A stretch of DNA of 64,000 nucleotides from a virus. The notes beneath the pieces are model-generated. The model searched no databases and was not told where the DNA came from. It was given only the letters and a program-made list of their open reading frames with translations. Shown in pieces: positions 2,035 through 62,958 of this stretch. Position numbers and translations under genes: made by a program. Within the stretch, counting starts at the first letter, position 1. Each line of letters starts with the position of its first letter. The stretch is from the IMG/VR virus record IMGVR_UViG_3300032213_001373, positions 38,328 through 102,327 of that record; one strand, given 5' to 3'.

Positions 2035-2068
2035 GTTAAACTCTGTACATAGTTAGAAGGAGATAATC

Positions 2069-4885
2069 ATAAACCCACTGCGTATATTCGCAGCACTATC
2101 TGTATTACTAAATAGGATTAATTTCGTAATTGGAGCGGGTTTTATATACCTGCTGTTAACACTTTCCCCAGCTCAGGCTGATGAACCTAGTCCCTCCACA
2201 GGGTCTGAGACCTCAACTGTTCTAGTTGGTACTCCAACTCAAGAACCCGCGCCTGCAACTTCGGGCCCTCAAACTTCCAGTACGACAAATTCTGCTGAGG
2301 TAACTCAGACATCAACGAGTCAACCTTCTTCGACGCCCACAAACGGTTCTTCTCAGCCCAGCGATCCAAGTCCAGCTGCTGCGCCCGAATCTTCGACTCA
2401 GCACACTTCAACTGAACCGACAACTTCAACACCTTCCCCTTCTCCGGCTGATACCACTGGATCAACGACACCAAGTAGCCAAGAACAAACGCCACCAACA
2501 ACAGTAGAGACTCCAACTGTAACCTCCGTTCAGACAAAAATAGAGAACGCAACTGTAACATTAAATACGGCTGTAGCTACAGCTTCTCCTGAACAAATTT
2601 CTGCGGCTACAGAACCTGTTGCTGCGGCTCAAACAGCTATTGCAGCCGCTGATTCAGCCACCGCGGTTGCTGTAACAGCCCAAGCAGCGGTAGATTCTCA
2701 GACAGCCGTGGTAGCAACTGCTACTACAAATGTAGCAACCGCCCAAGCAGATTTAACAACGGCTACTACTAATCTAACAACAGCTCAAGCTGATTTAACA
2801 ACAGCTCAAACCACCCTTACTAACGCCCCTGTAGTTGAGACAACCGCCCCAGGACTTGTTGTAAAAGTCTACAACGTTCAAGGTCAAAACCAAGCTCCAG
2901 TACTGCCACAAGGGGCAACACCTATCCATACAGCAGTTGACACTAACGGCATCAATGAAAACTGGGGAAGCGGTAACGTAGCTGGCTCTAATCGTTCAGA
3001 GGATGTAATTGTTACCTATGAAGGACAAGTTACTGCACCAGAGGGCGTAAACACCATTCGGTTCTTAACACTTTCAGATGATGGCGCCAGGATATTTATT
3101 GATAACGTATTAGTTGTAAACCAGTGGGTAGACCAAGGACCTACCTGGAGCCTTCCAAGTCAGTGGATTGATTTCACTAACGACAGAACTAAGGATATTG
3201 CCGTTTGGTATTATGAAAATGGTGGCGGTGCAACCCTTCATCTAGGTTGGCAACACAGCGGTATTCATACAGGTGTGGGTGCTCAGTATCTATCACATAC
3301 AACAACTACTCAAGACCCTACGTTAGTAACGGCGGTCACTACCGCACAATCTACTGTTACAGATAAAACGGAAGTGAAGCAAGTAGCAGAGACAACGCTT
3401 GCAACAGCTCAGACCACACTAACAACAGAAACTGGGACATTAACAACCCTCCAATCAACAGCTAGTACAGCACTTGCAACAGCTAACGCTCTAGCAGATA
3501 CAGCTACAGCTACGGTTGCCACTGCCGTTACAGTTCTTCAAACTCCGATTCCTCAGCCGACTCCAACACCTGAGCCAACTCCCGCACCGCAGCCAGAGCC
3601 AACACCAACCCCACAACCAGAGCCGACACCAACCCCAACACCACAACCCGAACCTTCACCTGAACCTACCCCCGTTCCTGTCGATCCAACACCCACACCA
3701 GTAGCGCCACAACCAGTGGAACCAACACCAACGCCAACTCCAACACCTGAACCTCCTACAGTTCCGTCAGTGGACCCTGTCCCCACAAATCCTGACCCGG
3801 TTCCAACACCTCAACCTGAGCCTCAACCTCAACCAACCTCTCCTGAGCCCGAAACGACACCAGAGGTAGACACTCCAGAGCCTCAACCAGAGCCTTCTCC
3901 AGAGGAAACACAAAATCCGGAAGAGCCTGAGTCTCCTGAAGAGAACATTCCTTCAGACACTGAAGACGGTTCAGACAGTCCTGAAGATCTTCCCGAAGAC
4001 GATACTGATCCCACCACAGAGTCACCTACTGAGCCCTCCACAGAAGAGCCAGAGACACCCACAGAACCATCAACAGGTACGGAAGAGCCCGAAGAACAAC
4101 CCGTAGAGCCTGAGGTGCCGTCTGAGGAAGTCGATACACCTGAGGAACCAGAAACACAACCAGAGATACCAGAGCAAGAGCAAGAAAATCCGTCCACAGA
4201 ACCATTAGAACCTCCTATTGAAGAAACAACTCCAGAGCCTACCACACCTGAAGAGGAGGTAGCGTCTGCTGTAGAGGACGTCCTATCTGACGGCAAGCTA
4301 ACTGCTGCTGATGCTGAAGAAGTTATGGACGCTCTAAACGCAGATGGAAAAGTCACTGCTGAGGAAGTCACTGCCCTAGTTGATGCCCTAAAGGAAGACG
4401 GCAAGCTTAGTGCTGCTGAGAAGGAACTTGTTGCTACTGCTCTTATTGAGTCTGTAGCCCCAGGTGAAACCCTCACAAAAGAACAGATTCAAGATGCCGG
4501 AATTGCTTATCAAGACCTGCCACCAGAGACTCCTGTTGAGGTTAGACAGGATGAAAACGGTAATGAAGTTATAATTACAGCAGACGTTGCCGCAGCCCTT
4601 GTGCTACTTGAGAACCCTGCGGAATTAATCGGTGAATTATTCAATGACCCAGGTCAAGCCCTCCAAGCACTCGGAAGTATCGGTGCGGACATGAGCCCAG
4701 AAGAACGTGAAGAAGCAACAGAAATGGTAGTTGCTGCCGTTGTGGCTGCAGGCGCTGCTATAAATGCAGTTGGTGCAGCAACAGGAAGCACTGGTGGAAG
4801 CACTGGTGGTTCTGGTGGCGGAGGCAGTTCTGGTGGCGGAGGTCCATCAGGAGATTCTAAAGGCGTTAGGAGACGTAAACCTTGA
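2069..4885 (+). CDS. secreted PA14-domain, Pro-rich protein; non-canonical AUA start
   Basis: Reads as 938 residues from ATA at 2069. An in-frame TAG sits at 2054-2056, then GAAGGAG (2056-2062), then ATA six bases later, followed by a textbook signal peptide (basic NPLRIF, hydrophobic [19 protein letters not shown], cleavage before DEP). No ATG, GTG or TTG occurs in frame until GTG 2708, which would delete the signal. Domains: Ser/Thr/Pro linker to about 150; Ala/Thr-rich helical repeats (ATAQADLTT type) 170-255; PA14-like beta domain 260-410 ([19 protein letters not shown]); second helical stretch 420-490; Pro/Glu repeat stalk 490-726; three DGK(L/V)xxxE helical repeats 728-795; Gly-rich tail ending in RRRKP. 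PA14 domains usually bind glycans, so a role at the host surface during or after lysis is inferred. ATA could alternatively reflect a sequence error. Confidence 0.7.
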
Positions 4886-5052
4886 AGATTATTAGAGACA
4901 TGATCGACCAACTATGGACATTGTTAGGCATGTTTATCGCCTGGGTTGTCCTCGATGGATCTGCAAAGACTGTAGTTGGTTATGCCATTGTTGGAACAAT
5001 ATTTGCATGGGCCGTTACCTATCCACTTCGTAACCCAAAGGATGAGGAATGA
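4882..5052 (+). CDS. two-TM small membrane protein, holin-like
   Basis: 56 residues from TTG at 4882, which overlaps the PA14 stop and has GGAG nine bases upstream; an internal ATG at 4900 lacks a clear Shine-Dalgarno. Two membrane segments (residues 11-26 [16 protein letters not shown] and 31-47 [17 protein letters not shown]) flank a short loop, then the tail RNPKDEE. It overlaps the next holin-like gene by ATGA. The compact hairpin topology and position directly before the endolysin suggest a holin or holin partner; this is inference. Confidence 0.65.
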
Positions 5053-5450
5053 AATCAATAGGAAACATTATTTTAAGAATCGTAGCTACTTTTGCAGCTA
5101 GCGGTTTGTCAGTAATTGGTGCTGGAGCTATTGCAGGAGTTGACACAATCACTGCAGTAACTGTAGCTGGTCTTACAGCTGTTGCAGCAGTAGTTGAAAA
5201 ACTTGCCCGCGGCTTTATGAATGACGGTAAATTAGATCTAGAAGAGATCAACGCTGCATTTGCTGCGGTAGATACTAAAGCCAAGAGTGAACACGATCTC
5301 AAGGTAGAAGCTAAGCAAAATGGAACAGACATCACCATCAGTGCAGCAGGTGCAGTAACTTATGCAGCAGTTGCAGCTGGAAAGCCTGAGGGAGAAGTTC
5401 CTGCAGAGCAGCCAGTTGATGAGGACTGGGCAAAAGAGGAGAACAACTAA
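5049..5450 (+). CDS. holin-like membrane protein with DGK repeat
   Basis: 133 residues. Two hydrophobic Ala/Val/Gly segments (about 6-30 and 32-50) are followed by ARGFMNDGKLDLEEINAAF, a half EF-hand-like motif that echoes the DGK repeats in the C-terminal part of the PA14 protein, and an acidic, low-complexity tail (EVPAEQPVDEDWAKEENN). It overlaps its neighbours at both ends (ATGA with the gene before, TAATG with the endolysin after). Small two-TM proteins with an acidic tail immediately before an endolysin are usually holins; I consider that the best call. Confidence 0.6.
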   Translation: MKSIGNIILRIVATFAASGLSVIGAGAIAGVDTITAVTVAGLTAVAAVVEKLARGFMNDGKLDLEEINAAFAAVDTKAKSEHDLKVEAKQNGTDITISAAGAVTYAAVAAGKPEGEVPAEQPVDEDWAKEENN

Positions 5451-6019
5451 TGGCAGATCATGGCACAGCAGCTAAGCTTATTGAAGTTGCTACAGCAGAA
5501 CTAGGAACCATTGAAGGTCCTAAGGATAATGAGACAAAGTACGGCGCTTATACCAAGGCCAACTTCCAGCCATGGTGTGGTTCATTTGTTAACTGGTGCG
5601 CTAACGAGGCTGGTGTAAAGGTACCTAATACTGTATACACCCCTGGTGGAGCAGCAGCATTTAAGAAGGCTAGTTCATGGATTGATGGAGACATCGCAGA
5701 TCCAGAACCAGGAGATATTGCGTATTTTGATTTCCCATCAGACGGCGTCGATAGAATTTCTCACGTAGGAATTGTTATCAAGGACAACGGAGATGGAACT
5801 GTTTGGTGCATTGAGGGTAATACATCCCCTGATGAAAAGGGCAGCCAGCGCAATGGTGGTCAAGTTTCTAAGAAGCTTCGTGCTTTTAAGAAGAACCCAA
5901 AGAAAGTACAGATTTCTATCGTGGGATTTGGACGCCCTAAGTTTAAGGGTGCTCCTAAGGCTACTGCTCCGGCAGAATCGACCCCGGGGGTTTGTTCCTG
6001 CTGCGGTCGTCAGCTCTAA
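5450..6019 (+). CDS. CHAP-domain endolysin
   Basis: 189 residues. The CHAP (NlpC/P60-like cysteine amidase/peptidase) fold covers about residues 5-165: catalytic Cys43 in PWCGSFVNWC, His105 in RISHVGIV and the third polar position in CIEGNTS (residues 120-126). Such enzymes cleave amide bonds in peptidoglycan and lyse the host. There is no signal peptide, so export through a holin is expected, fitting the two membrane genes directly upstream. The Shine-Dalgarno GAGGAG sits nine bases before the ATG. The C-terminus CSCCGRQL has three Cys in four residues after an Ala/Pro linker and no recognisable wall-binding domain; it may bind metal or be a short targeting tail. Confidence 0.85.
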   Translation: MADHGTAAKLIEVATAELGTIEGPKDNETKYGAYTKANFQPWCGSFVNWCANEAGVKVPNTVYTPGGAAAFKKASSWIDGDIADPEPGDIAYFDFPSDGVDRISHVGIVIKDNGDGTVWCIEGNTSPDEKGSQRNGGQVSKKLRAFKKNPKKVQISIVGFGRPKFKGAPKATAPAESTPGVCSCCGRQL

Positions 6020-37638: not shown

Positions 37639-38446
37639 ACAAGTCCGCTAACGTTAGCGGTAGCGGTACCTCCCGCCCGCAATTTGGACACTCTTTTTTG
37701 ATTGAGCTAAGTTGTGGTCCAGGGTTGCGTTCTGATATGGCATTAAGAATTGTTCTGCGATCCTTTACGCTGAGCTTAAGTACAGCGTTAGGGTCAAGCA
37801 CAGACTGACCGTTAATCTCAAGAACACAGCTCTTTAATACGATGGAGTCCAATTCTGGAGCTGTTTTATTACCTGAATTAACGAGTTGCTTTTGTGTGTT
37901 ACCTGTTGGTAAATGTACCTTTACGGAACCAATATTACAAGCAACATCAAAAGCTGAAGAACCTTCTAGTTTCTTCATCTCTACATCTTTATCTAAGTCA
38001 ATAGTTAAAGTCATGTCGTCAGGGCATTCTTCGCAGAACGCTCCCTGAACTGTTACATCTGGCCCAAACGTTTGCTTGCGGATTGCCAAAAGCAATAGCT
38101 CTCGGTCTCCAGCTAGCAAAGCATCAAGGATGTCTTTGTCTGGTTTCTTATCTCCTAGCTTAGTTACGGCTCTTTCTAAGATAAGCATTAAGCCCTTAGA
38201 TAGATCGTTAACTCTTGCTACAGCTTCTTCGTCAGCTCCGTTGAGCTCCCGCACTTCAGCTGTAGAGATGAAGTCTCCAAACGGTTCTTGAAAACCAGCT
38301 AGTAGCTCAACATGCGGATCAGAAGGAGGCGTAATCTTTGTTTCTGAAAACGCCTCCTCCCGACCAGCTTGAGCTACTGCTTGCGCCGATAGTTGATTTG
38401 CAAGGGCAGGATTATCTACTGCGCTTACTGTCGTATTAGTTGTCAT
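37628..38446 (-). CDS. T4 gp26-like baseplate/tail assembly protein with two zinc knuckles
   Basis: 272 residues. FISTAEVRELNGADEEAVAR near the start is the LTGxDEE-type segment of the T4 baseplate hub protein family, DALLAGDRELLLLAIRKQTF is the central conserved part, and FCEECPDDMTLTIDL with a later ECPNCGREVPLPLTLADLFQ supplies two Cys pairs. Members form the hub or act as tail assembly proteins. It lies between the tube gene and the tape measure, the normal location for assembly chaperones, and its 3' end overlaps an open +1 frame (37480-37638). Confidence 0.7.
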   Translation of the reverse strand: MTTNTTVSAVDNPALANQLSAQAVAQAGREEAFSETKITPPSDPHVELLAGFQEPFGDFISTAEVRELNGADEEAVARVNDLSKGLMLILERAVTKLGDKKPDKDILDALLAGDRELLLLAIRKQTFGPDVTVQGAFCEECPDDMTLTIDLDKDVEMKKLEGSSAFDVACNIGSVKVHLPTGNTQKQLVNSGNKTAPELDSIVLKSCVLEINGQSVLDPNAVLKLSVKDRRTILNAISERNPGPQLSSIKKECPNCGREVPLPLTLADLFQS

Positions 38447-47374: not shown

Positions 47375-47488
47375 TTATTCTTCAGTGAATACTAGATCGT
47401 ATCCAACCAAGTTTCCTTGGTCATCCCGGACTTCAAACTTCTCTGCTCCGGTCTCTGGGTCAATGCCTAAGCTTACTTTAGTTGTCAT
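47375..47488 (-). CDS. 37-residue small protein
   Basis: MTTKVSLGIDPETGAEKFEV RDDQGNLVGYDLVFTEE, starting in an ATGA overlap with the collagen-like fibre gene stop (47485) and ending 16 bases before the glycosyltransferase start. Acidic, with a beta-like pattern. Coding status rests on coupling and composition; function unknown. Confidence 0.5.
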   Translation of the reverse strand: MTTKVSLGIDPETGAEKFEVRDDQGNLVGYDLVFTEE

Positions 47489-49545
47489 GATAGTCGTCCC
47501 CACGGTGCGATAGCTGTTGTTGTAAATGAGTTTGAGGTAGAAGGTAGGTCAGTCTGTGACGCTACATAACCTGATAGACGAGGTCCTAGGCTGGACAACG
47601 CCGCTGGGATATTTGCAAACGCTGTGTATACGGTAGGAGCTGTTGTTCCTACGTAGAGGACAGCAATCGCATATCGAGTTCCAGCTTGTAACGTGTAAGT
47701 AGATGGGTATCCACCGGTAGTACTAAAAGCACGGGTAAAGACTGTGTTTGTAGTACCTAGAAGGGTTACGTCACTGTCTGTGCGAGCAACCAATGTAGCG
47801 GTAGTACCGTTAAAGGTATAAAGACCTAGGCGTACAGTCTGCGCTCCAGTAGCTGCAGTGTTAGCTGAAACCACTGTAAGGTTGCTGATAGTTGCTGTCC
47901 ACATAGGGCTAAAGAATGTGAAGTATGCGTTTCCGCTTGACAACACGCCGCTAGAGTTCGTGGTACGTGGATATACGTCAACTATGCTCGTAGTTTGGTT
48001 TAGGTTACCTGCAATATCCTGGAAGATATCTTTCCAAACCAATCCGGTAGTCTGAGCTGAGTCTGCAACCAAAGCACGACCGTTTACTCCTACAGCTAAC
48101 TTATCTAAAGTTCCAGTGCCTGTTCCAGCTAAAAGGTCTCCCTTTGCTGTGTACTGGTGGCTTCCTAGAAGGGTTGTAGTGCTTGTAGGTAAGGTAAGTG
48201 TACCCGTGTTAGTAATGCTAGATATTACAGGAGAGGTGAGTGTTAGTCCTGCTACTGTAGTAGTTGCCGACCCCAAAGTAAGTGTGCTAGAACCTAGTGT
48301 GATAGTTGAGTTTGCTAGCTTAACATTGGTGACGTTAGCGTCAACAATCTTTACTGTAGTAACAGTTCCATCGGTAGGTGTACGTGTATTTGTAAGTCTT
48401 GTATCAGTTCCGTAGACAACCTGAGAGTTAGAGGCATCTCCCGAAGCCGGAAAGTCTTTTGTTGATGCTGTACCTAGACCAGTAATCTGGGTATTTGCAA
48501 GCGATAAGACAGATTGATTAAGACCTAATACAGCAGAGGTAGAAGACCCCGTATTTGTAACAGGTCCTGTTACAGAGATAACGCCTGAAGGTCCAGTAGG
48601 TCCTATTAGTCCTTGAGGACCGGTAGGTCCTGTCCCACCTTGAGGCCCGGTTGCACCTTGAGGCCCAACAATTTGACCGACGCTTGTCCAAGCTGTGCCG
48701 TTCCATACGTAGAGGTCTCCGTCGGCATCAACAATGTATGCGTCATTAATATCATTTCCTGAAGAAGGTAGGTTTACAACAGCAGCTACGCTTCCTTTAA
48801 AATCAATAGAAGTTCCTTGTGGACCAGTAGGACCTGTTATTCCAGACGGACCAGTAGGACCTGTTTCACCCTGAGGACCCGTAGGTCCTAAGCTAGAAAC
48901 AGTAATGCTATTTCCCATGTTAGGGTGGTTTTGACATACATATGTCAAAGAGCTTGGAGCGTCATATGGGACTTCAAAAATAATAGTTCCAACTGCTACG
49001 CCAGCGTTAGTTACGCCAGTACTGTAAACGTTTGCAGGGTTGTACGCTAATCCGGATGTTTGAATCCAAAATGGGTGACCTGGAGCGTTTACGTTTATTA
49101 CGTATCGGTGACCACGGATAAAAGAAATAACCGGGTTGTTTGCCCCGTTAACAATATAGATTCCACCGGCAGGTGATGTAACAGAAAGGGTAATACCACC
49201 ACTAGGACCAGTTGGTCCTGTTGGTCCTGTAGGTCCAACCGGGCCAGTTACTCCTTGAGGAATACCAAAGTTATAAACTGCTGCGGTAGTAGTTCCGCTG
49301 TTAGTTACTGTTGCTGAAGCTCCTGGAGAAAGAGTGTTTACAGTTCCAACTGTTGCAGTTGAGCTAGGACCTGTAGGGCCTGTTGTACCAGAAGAATACT
49401 GAAGACTGTTCCAAGGGCTAGTACCGTTACCGATTTTAAACTTACCGGTGTCGTGTTCATACCCAGCTTCACCTTGAGATAGTACAGGGTTAGAAGTAGT
49501 CCACTCTGTTGCAGTGCCTCGTCTAAACTGAATCTTAACAGCCAT
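47485..49545 (-). CDS. collagen-like tail fibre with cupredoxin-like domain
   Basis: 686 residues. The N-terminal domain MAVKIQFRRGTATEWTTSNP with GEAGYEHDTGKFKIGNG is a frequent fibre attachment motif. Short GPTGP collagen-like repeats flank a domain (about 130-220) with APGHPFWIQTSGLAY and LTYVCQNHPNMGNSITV: His, Cys, His, Met in cupredoxin (type 1 copper) order. After a capping module (FKGSVAAVVNLPSS...GDLYVWNGTAW) come beta-rich domains and a C-terminal head. It is probably a receptor-binding or decoration fibre. ATG overlaps the TM gene upstream by TAATG. Confidence 0.75.
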   Translation of the reverse strand: MAVKIQFRRGTATEWTTSNPVLSQGEAGYEHDTGKFKIGNGTSPWNSLQYSSGTTGPTGPSSTATVGTVNTLSPGASATVTNSGTTTAAVYNFGIPQGVTGPVGPTGPTGPTGPSGGITLSVTSPAGGIYIVNGANNPVISFIRGHRYVINVNAPGHPFWIQTSGLAYNPANVYSTGVTNAGVAVGTIIFEVPYDAPSSLTYVCQNHPNMGNSITVSSLGPTGPQGETGPTGPSGITGPTGPQGTSIDFKGSVAAVVNLPSSGNDINDAYIVDADGDLYVWNGTAWTSVGQIVGPQGATGPQGGTGPTGPQGLIGPTGPSGVISVTGPVTNTGSSTSAVLGLNQSVLSLANTQITGLGTASTKDFPASGDASNSQVVYGTDTRLTNTRTPTDGTVTTVKIVDANVTNVKLANSTITLGSSTLTLGSATTTVAGLTLTSPVISSITNTGTLTLPTSTTTLLGSHQYTAKGDLLAGTGTGTLDKLAVGVNGRALVADSAQTTGLVWKDIFQDIAGNLNQTTSIVDVYPRTTNSSGVLSSGNAYFTFFSPMWTATISNLTVVSANTAATGAQTVRLGLYTFNGTTATLVARTDSDVTLLGTTNTVFTRAFSTTGGYPSTYTLQAGTRYAIAVLYVGTTAPTVYTAFANIPAALSSLGPRLSGYVASQTDLPSTSNSFTTTAIAPWGRLS

Positions 49546-49688
49546 TAGCAGTCACACTTCTCTTTCTTTCTCATCTTCCACCACATCCATACGTGGTGTG
49601 CCGCCATCAATCCCATAAGAATCCACATGACAGTCATTTCACTTATTCCACTGCCAGTAGCCAACACCATGTTTTCATGATCATGCAT
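49545..49688 (-). CDS. 47-residue single-TM protein, Met/His-rich
   Basis: [20 protein letters not shown] then MWILMGLMAAHHVWMWWKMR and KKEKCDC. One hydrophobic membrane segment carries several Met and His residues, with a Cys-x-Cys end, a metal-binding look. TAATG junctions link it to the fibre genes on both sides. Possible membrane accessory for lysis or metal handling; unknown. Confidence 0.55.
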   Translation of the reverse strand: MHDHENMVLATGSGISEMTVMWILMGLMAAHHVWMWWKMRKKEKCDC

Positions 49689-59947: not shown

Positions 59948-61879
<1,932 letters not shown>

Positions 61880-61881
61880 GG

Positions 61882-62958
61882 TCACTTCGTAATCTGAGGC
61901 TTAGTAAATACTTTGCCTTCTAGGTATGTACGCACTGCTCCAGTAGAGTCGTTTGTCAACTGGATGTCGTAATAGGCGGTTCGTGGAAGATCTCTTGTTT
62001 GTGCGCTTGTAAGTGACAGAGTGATAGTGTCTAATGGACCATTAGTTACGGATGCACTCTTTGTAATAGCAAAGTTTTGCAAAATAATTGGGCCAACTTG
62101 ATTGCTTGGGAATGTAGGGAACAAACGAATCTGCGATAGAGGTGTGTACCCAGCCAAGTTAAGTGTGAACTTAAGTTGAATGCTGAAGTTGTCTCCTGAG
62201 TACAGTGAGAGATCTTTGTTGACCACTGGGCTTGCAGGAGTGATGTCGCCGTAATCTGGAACAGAAAGGCGAATGCGTTGCGGTAGTGATCCGTCATCAA
62301 TTTCTTGTGGACGATACATCGGGATGTATCGATTAGTACGGCGACTGATGCGCTGCAAGTTAAACACATCGATCTTATAAAGACCTGTACCTAGAAGATT
62401 ACATAGATCACGATACTGCTCTTTACGCTGCCCGATGATCTCCATCAATTGACGGAAACGCTCTGATCGTGGAATAGAAACGCCGTCTGGAGAAATAATA
62501 TCGATATCAAAAGCGGCGTCGGTAGCCAAGGTATATAAGGCCATAGTTGAGGCTAATAAGACCACTGGGTACTCATCTACACCTGGCAGAGTAGCCATAG
62601 TTATACGAGCTCCGCCACTGTCTGTAAGGTTAGCTGCGTGCTCAGAAAAAGCGGTGTTTACGTAATATTGGATTTCAGCATCTGTAAAGTACTTGTGAGC
62701 TGTTCCAGAAATAATAACTGTAGCGTTTAGTGGGGCTACTGCTCCAAGCGTGACCATGCCGATCACTTCTTCAACTGTGGCGGCGTTAGATACTTCAACA
62801 CCATTAACTTTGATAGATAGGGATGTGCCGTTTACAGGCGCTTCAGTAAGCTGGAAACGCTTACGCTCTCCGTCCCCTCGGAATTCTTCTACGAAGGAGC
62901 GGTTTAGATCTCCGATCTCTGCTCTTAAGCGATCGGATAGGGATGCTAAAGTGGCCAC
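61882..62958 (-). CDS. connector/neck-like structural protein with Ig-like end
   Basis: 358 residues from GTG 62958 (AGAGGATCT close upstream). [20 protein letters not shown], then [36 protein letters not shown] and [20 protein letters not shown] in the first half resemble phage head-tail connector or head completion proteins; the C-terminal 130 residues ([20 protein letters not shown] and beyond) form a beta-sandwich end domain. It follows the small head protein in transcription order. Confidence 0.55.

Follow-up and report, generated by a model that had tools for sequence, protein, structure and literature searches.

Probable AUA, AUU and AUC start codons and a covarying hairpin inside the coding sequence in the gene family of a predicted secreted PA14-domain phage protein

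Organization of the Locus

The window, i.e., the whole 64,000-nucleotide stretch of DNA that was analysed, belongs to a virus record of 102,327 bp (IMG/VR record IMGVR_UViG_3300032213_001373, positions 38,328 to 102,327). It carries the gene of a predicted secreted protein with a PA14 domain, followed by two membrane-protein-like genes and an endolysin. The features of this locus, in coordinates of the window, are as follows:

2037..2042, + strand: possible extended −10 promoter element, (TGT)TAAACT, proposed from the sequence and its relatives
2054..2056, + strand: in-frame stop TAG closing the frame upstream, read from the sequence
2056..2062, + strand: Shine-Dalgarno (SD) sequence GAAGGAG, separated by a 6-nt spacer (ATAATC) from the ATA, read from the sequence
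2069..2071, + strand: probable ATA start codon (homologous codon in relatives: ATA, ATC, ATT, TTG, ATG, GTG or GTA)
2069..4885, + strand: coding sequence of the predicted secreted PA14-domain protein, 938 codons plus stop
2069..2179, + strand: signal-peptide-like N-terminus ending AQA↓DE, from inspection of the translation
2078..2093, + strand: conserved hairpin CTGCG-TATATT-CGCAG, +10 to +25 of the message, from covariation and third-base conservation
2849..3148, + strand: PA14 domain (PF07691), residues 261–360, 26.8 bits for a cut-off of 24
4205..4882, + strand: conserved C-terminal domain, ending in a glycine-rich stretch and RRRKP, from an alignment of 45 members
4882..5049, + strand: small membrane-protein-like gene whose TTG start overlaps the stop of the PA14 gene
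5049..5450, + strand: gene for a 133-aa membrane-protein-like product, possibly a holin
5450..6019, + strand: CHAP endolysin (Pfam CHAP, PHROG endolysin)

The ATA-started frame is closed by the TGA ending at 4885, and the (TGT)TAAAGT/TAAACT element recurs 5′ of the gene in many relatives. With a CHAP endolysin three genes downstream, the name "lysis locus" used for this region in a preliminary description of the window is fitting. The nearest cultured relatives of the DNA polymerase (~40% identity) come from Streptomyces phages, as do most of those of the endolysin, which points to an actinobacterium as the likely host. Neither a phage-encoded tRNA nor an IF3 gene was found on searching the window and the full 102-kb record. 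Elsewhere in the window, on the minus strand, positions 47485–49551 encode a tail-type protein combining an Mtd_N (major tropism determinant) domain with collagen repeats, possibly part of a receptor-binding diversity system, and positions 59948–61900 encode another protein, with strong collagen triple-helix repeats (Pfam E 1.7e-49).

The Protein Product

From its N-terminus, the protein is organized as a signal-peptide-like segment, a Ser/Thr/Pro-rich stretch, the PA14 domain, a Pro/Glu-rich stretch and the conserved C-terminal domain. A basic n-region, a hydrophobic core and an A-x-A site are visible in the translation right after the start, and a scan of the relatives for hydrophobicity and AxA sites likewise returned a hydrophobic stretch with an A-x-A type end. 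The PA14 domain proposed in the preliminary description is borne out by a Pfam score above the cut-off, a likeness shared with the PA14 domain proteins at large; however, some family members (L075) are without a PA14 match and, unlike in a PA14 grouping, the members of this family have in common the putative signal peptide and the C-terminal domain. A model of the latter, of moderate confidence (mean pLDDT 73, pTM 0.56), is mostly helical, and the domain has no match in the PDB and none in Pfam over the cut-off. The protein is without a match in PHROGs, no relative was found in cultured phages, and one weak match came from a bacterial genome contig (36% over 70 residues). The end of the protein (window 4800–4885), conserved in the family, consists of a hydrophobic helix, the glycine-rich stretch and RRRKP and could constitute a surface or membrane anchor.

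The Start Codon and Frame of the PA14 Gene

Re-reading the window confirmed the coordinates previously given for the TAG, the GAAGGAG, the six-base spacer, the ATA, the signal-peptide-like stretch and GTG 2708, as well as the statement that the frame holds no ATG, GTG or TTG before GTG 2708. This GTG, located 213 codons after ATA 2069, is thus the earliest canonical in-frame start; in any frame, ATG, GTG and TTG are absent between the SD and TTG 2130, the next ATG being at 2181. Among the 75 maximal open reading frames (ORFs) of the window, the first canonical start, counted from the upstream stop, is found at codon 217 in the PA14 gene versus codon 39 at most in all the others, with the same outcome when the comparison was repeated with ORFs of at least 150 codons; the lack of a nearby canonical start in the PA14 ORF is not a matter of chance.

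An identical SD-ATA context is present in the nearest relative, L002, an independent contig with 94% DNA identity over the start stretch, and ATA is also kept in many relatives more distant than L002. Over the first 40 codons, the comparison of the window with L002 gives a dN of 0.023 for a dS of 0.34; the N-terminus is thus under purifying selection and the region 5′ of GTG 2708 is coding.

Start Codons across the Family

Protein searches and one DNA-pattern search of IMG/VR relatives yielded ~250 loci, and a start could be assigned in 202 of them, representing 115 distinct 5′ sequence contexts: TTG 41, ATA 27, ATT 25, ATG 10, ATC 8, CTG 2, GTA 1 and one unassigned. AUH starts (ATA, ATT or ATC) are thus used in 60 of the 115 contexts and ATG in only 10. 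When loci found solely by the DNA pattern are left out, the counts become TTG 34, ATT 24, ATA 23, ATG 7, ATC 6, CTG 2 and unassigned 1. Outside the N-terminal type characterized by an LRxFAA motif, assignments are based on SD spacing and similarity and are individually less certain. No NTG (ATG, GTG or TTG) occurs in any frame from −12 to +18 in 42 of 55 distinct AUH contexts; as the other 13 have an NTG close to the start in at least one frame, single assignments among the relatives may be wrong. An AGGAG or GGAG at similar spacing precedes the AUH starts of relatives.

The strongest evidence for ATA as the start is the positional homology within the LRxFAA type, where the start is always located 9 nt 5′ of the motif and hairpin; the codon at this place varies among the phages, some having ATA, ATC, ATT or GTA and others ATG, TTG or GTG. 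The presence of ATG, TTG or GTG at exactly the ATA position in several phages fixes this codon as the homologous start, and no relative was seen to begin at the codon corresponding to GTG 2708 and thereby lack the signal peptide. On these sequence comparisons, ATA 2069 is strongly supported as the start codon. The preliminary description was therefore right in reading AUA as a start but had taken it for a single case: the use of AUA, AUU, AUC and UUG is family-wide and AUG is rare.

Mapped onto a phylogeny of the C-terminal domain, the AUH label requires 19 changes, at least 7 of which are forced by well-supported (starred) branches, so that the trait does not go back to one frozen event; as the N- and C-terminal parts seem to recombine, such change counts are approximate. 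The rare starts are specific to this gene. In the same loci, the CHAP endolysin gene starts with ATG in 57 and GTG in 4 cases (n = 61), the small membrane (TM) gene with ATG in 56, GTG in 11 and TTG in 16, and the two upstream genes with ATG throughout (22/22 and 24/24). A general use of rare starts by the phage is ruled out by these neighbours together with the other ORFs of the window.

Three subgroups have start regions of their own. L094, L123 and L142 have a GTA start where ATA stands in their close relatives L045 and L103, the SD context being otherwise alike; such a GTA would represent either a start rarer still or a hypomorphic variant. In L056, L058, L059 and L194, an out-of-frame ATG at −11 leads into the run TTAAAAAAATAC, where a −1 shift is a possible alternative entry to the main frame for this subgroup only. 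In L228, L239, L231, L232, L250 and L242, an SD-like GGAAAGG is directly followed by ATG or GTG (ATG-TGA in some), 9–12 nt 5′ of the ATT or ATC, and the true start is ambiguous.

A Conserved Hairpin inside the Coding Sequence

The start region also contains a hairpin at +10 to +25, absent from the preliminary description. Codons 4–9 read CTG CGY NTA TTC GCA GC and form the perfect inverted repeat CTGCG-N6-CGCAG, a pattern with a single match in the window (0.02 expected) and found essentially only here in 2.06 Mb of relatives' DNA, the exceptions being chance hits from the pattern scan. In a set of 31 distinct sequences, gathered by searches that did not use the motif, 96.1% of the cells are paired versus 20–56% for slid controls, and three of the five stem pairs have changed on both sides. 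The clear examples of compensated stems are CTACG/CGTAG in L020, L022 and L023, CAGCG/CGCTG in L031 and TTGCG/CGCAA in L041; in each of them, a synonymous change is paired with one that alters the protein, and protein constraint thus cannot explain them.

Conservation at the third bases of codons gives a concordant picture. Those of codons 4 and 7–10 are nearly fixed (H 0–0.38), in comparison with a mean H of 1.24 for the third bases of conserved codons of the C-terminal domain, and this conservation extends to codon 10, past the stem; in the loop, the third base of codon 5 is free to vary (H 1.12). The loop as a whole is partly conserved (YNTANT) and each phage has one copy of the hairpin. 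Its presence in members starting with ATG (L024, L030, L082, L088, L106 and L124) argues against a simple role of compensating for, or helping, weak starts. L025, L032 and L244 are without it. The whole initiation region of the window folds no better than shuffled sequences (z −0.34 and 0.09), and Rfam covariance models returned no match over positions 1900–2400 up to E = 1.

Structures involving the SD itself occur upstream of the start in parts of the family. A common SD-sequestering structure was considered and rejected, the window and its nearest kin being without one; in some relatives (L015, L090) the SD is sequestered. Within the TTG-start group, L084, L092, L116, L117, L120, L125 and the L155–L180 group have ATTCC-GAGG-GGAAT just upstream, with the SD in the hairpin loop, and the counterpart in L085 and L107 is ATCC-GAGG-GGAT. 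L025 (~3333–3353) has GTTGTC-GAGGGAGAA-GACAAC before a CTG, also with the SD in the loop, and in L010 (~4738–4755), L077 (~2113–2130) and L143 the SD can become part of a hairpin, in its loop or stem, that overlaps the start codon.

Alternative Explanations

The window is an assembled metagenomic virus and ATA is one base away from ATG, so a sequencing or assembly error, or a chance polymorphism of a true ATG at 2069, had been named as the alternative in the preliminary description. The base in question is however also that of an ATA, not an ATG, in the independent L002; ATA is found in more than 25 distinct contexts, other relatives have ATT, ATC or GTA at the same codon, and as independent contigs share the non-AUG class, the error is effectively excluded. 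A start at GTG 2708, the first canonical in-frame codon and the choice of standard gene callers, would leave the 213 codons before it untranslated; it has no SD ahead, it is at odds with the purifying selection upstream and with a predicted signal peptide kept in the family, and the ATG and TTG members start at the ATA position, so that it deserves practically no credence. The conserved CTG 2078 of the hairpin is another candidate, CTG being a better-known weak start that is present in nearly all members of the LRxFAA type, but it is located 15 nt from the SD, it is replaced by CTA in L020, L022 and L023 and by CAG in L031 with frame and SD kept, and in other members the ATA position, 9 nt ahead of the CTG, holds ATG, TTG or GTG. 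Its conservation is accounted for by its being part of the hairpin, and initiation there is very improbable.

Ribosomes might also be fed by a short upstream ORF (ATG 2033, MLNSVHS, TAG) through stop readthrough or reinitiation, since ATG 2033 shares the reading frame of the gene, the TAG of this ORF directly adjoins the SD and, in L009, no stop interrupts the frame after that ATG. Among the 45 module-A AUH loci, however, only 5 have their closest upstream ATG in frame and 19 have no ATG within 40 nt upstream; the stop is TAA or TAG depending on the locus, ATG 2033 is without an SD and lies inside the probable −10 element, and reinitiation would still require an AUA start. As TAG serves as a normal stop here, ending 8 of the 47 long ORFs, a recoded TAG with readthrough was rejected on this usage and on the module-A loci, and a contribution of the upstream ORF as a whole is hardly to be expected. 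A different proposal, which elaborates on a weak AUA start and does not exclude it, is that hairpin and start form a translational operator, where an RNA-binding protein of phage or host, or melting of the hairpin, would turn on expression at a given time. The maintenance of the stem by compensatory changes, the partly conserved loop and its single copy per phage speak for an operator; however, no candidate regulator was identified and a 5-bp hairpin is weak and may only set mRNA accessibility, and the operator is an unlikely, though not far-fetched, elaboration.

Proposed Mechanism and Known Parallels

The explanation we favour, with a probability of about 0.85, is that a weak, IF3-discriminated start placed behind a strong SD, together with the hairpin, holds down or delays the synthesis of a predicted secreted protein of the lysis region. 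Only two positions of an AUH codon pair with fMet-tRNA, and IF3 discriminates against such codons; infC, a known parallel, is a host housekeeping gene under autoregulation. At AUA 2069, ordinary SD-dependent initiation with the initiator fMet-tRNA would involve a mispairing at the third position, so that IF3 would reject most such complexes and the output would be expected to be a fraction of that of AUG. The interchange of AUA, AUU, AUC and UUG, with AUG rare, suggests that selection holds the start weak family-wide. The 5-bp hairpin, near the mRNA entry of the ribosome, would constitute the second part of the initiation region, either tuning initiation or serving as a putative regulator-binding site. 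By these means, the lysis-region PA14 protein, Pro/Ser/Thr-rich and predicted to be Sec-exported, would be made in low amounts or late. Weak initiation, IF3 dependence and a reduced yield are inferred by analogy with S. aureus ccpN (AUA) and Streptomyces sigR (GTC); low or delayed synthesis ahead of the endolysin is the likely purpose, to which timing and regulation by the hairpin may contribute. The view taken in the preliminary description, of AUA as an IF3-sensitive start that limits synthesis, is plausible in the light of published cases.

Judged from its sequence, the gene resembles those under IF3-discriminated non-AUG control of the infC class: an AUH codon occupies the homologous start with no canonical start nearby, a strong SD (GAAGGAG) is suitably spaced at 6 nt, similarly in relatives, and the non-AUG class is conserved (the 60 AUH contexts). 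The infC start is AUU in E. coli and AUC in Streptomyces (PMC5472188), and AUA in S. aureus (PMC13009471). In both infC, across bacteria, and the phage gene an AUH start is kept of which only the third base differs, a class recognised by IF3; in contrast, the phage gene encodes a predicted secreted protein, with no feedback known and no phage IF3 gene. The same study describes S. aureus ccpN and citZ (AUA) and cvfC1 (AUU), expressed at ~10% of AUG in poor medium, and extended SDs at conserved AUA/AUU sites (PMC13009471). Like the phage gene, these have AUA or AUU behind an SD, conserved for cvfC1 and ccpN, but they are chromosomal, and no hairpin at +10 to +25 is mentioned in the passages describing them. 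The GTC start of Streptomyces sigR, repressed by IF3 with a physiological effect (PMC5472188), is likewise a non-canonical start in an actinobacterium, although the codon is another one and sets the sigma to anti-sigma ratio. A literature search of partial coverage found no phage gene with a conserved AUA or AUU start. What appears new here is the unusually large scale on which a phage family uses AUH starts, together with the hairpin element.

Implications

A bolder and more tentative proposal, possible but on the doubtful side, sees in this arrangement a translational timer dedicated to a single gene, that of the predicted secreted protein of the lysis region, in a large group of aquatic phages. 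If it holds, the AUH or UUG start, non-AUG by design, and the covarying hairpin just inside the coding sequence would act together, and synthesis would rise only late in infection, upon a change in initiation fidelity or ribosome availability or through an RNA-binding regulator.

To our knowledge, natural AUA, AUU and AUC starts come from a handful of bacterial genes. Here, AUH starts occur in 55 or more distinct contexts of a single phage gene family, in which the third base interchanges and AUG is avoided; the family thus provides a natural set of variants with which the influence of non-AUG starts and of IF3 on expression can be tested. Gene callers restricted to ATG, GTG and TTG truncate these proteins and drop the predicted signal peptide (213 residues are lost here), so that their export has probably been missed. 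Within the coding sequence near the start, the hairpin maintained by compensatory changes is a specific and testable candidate for a translational-control element.
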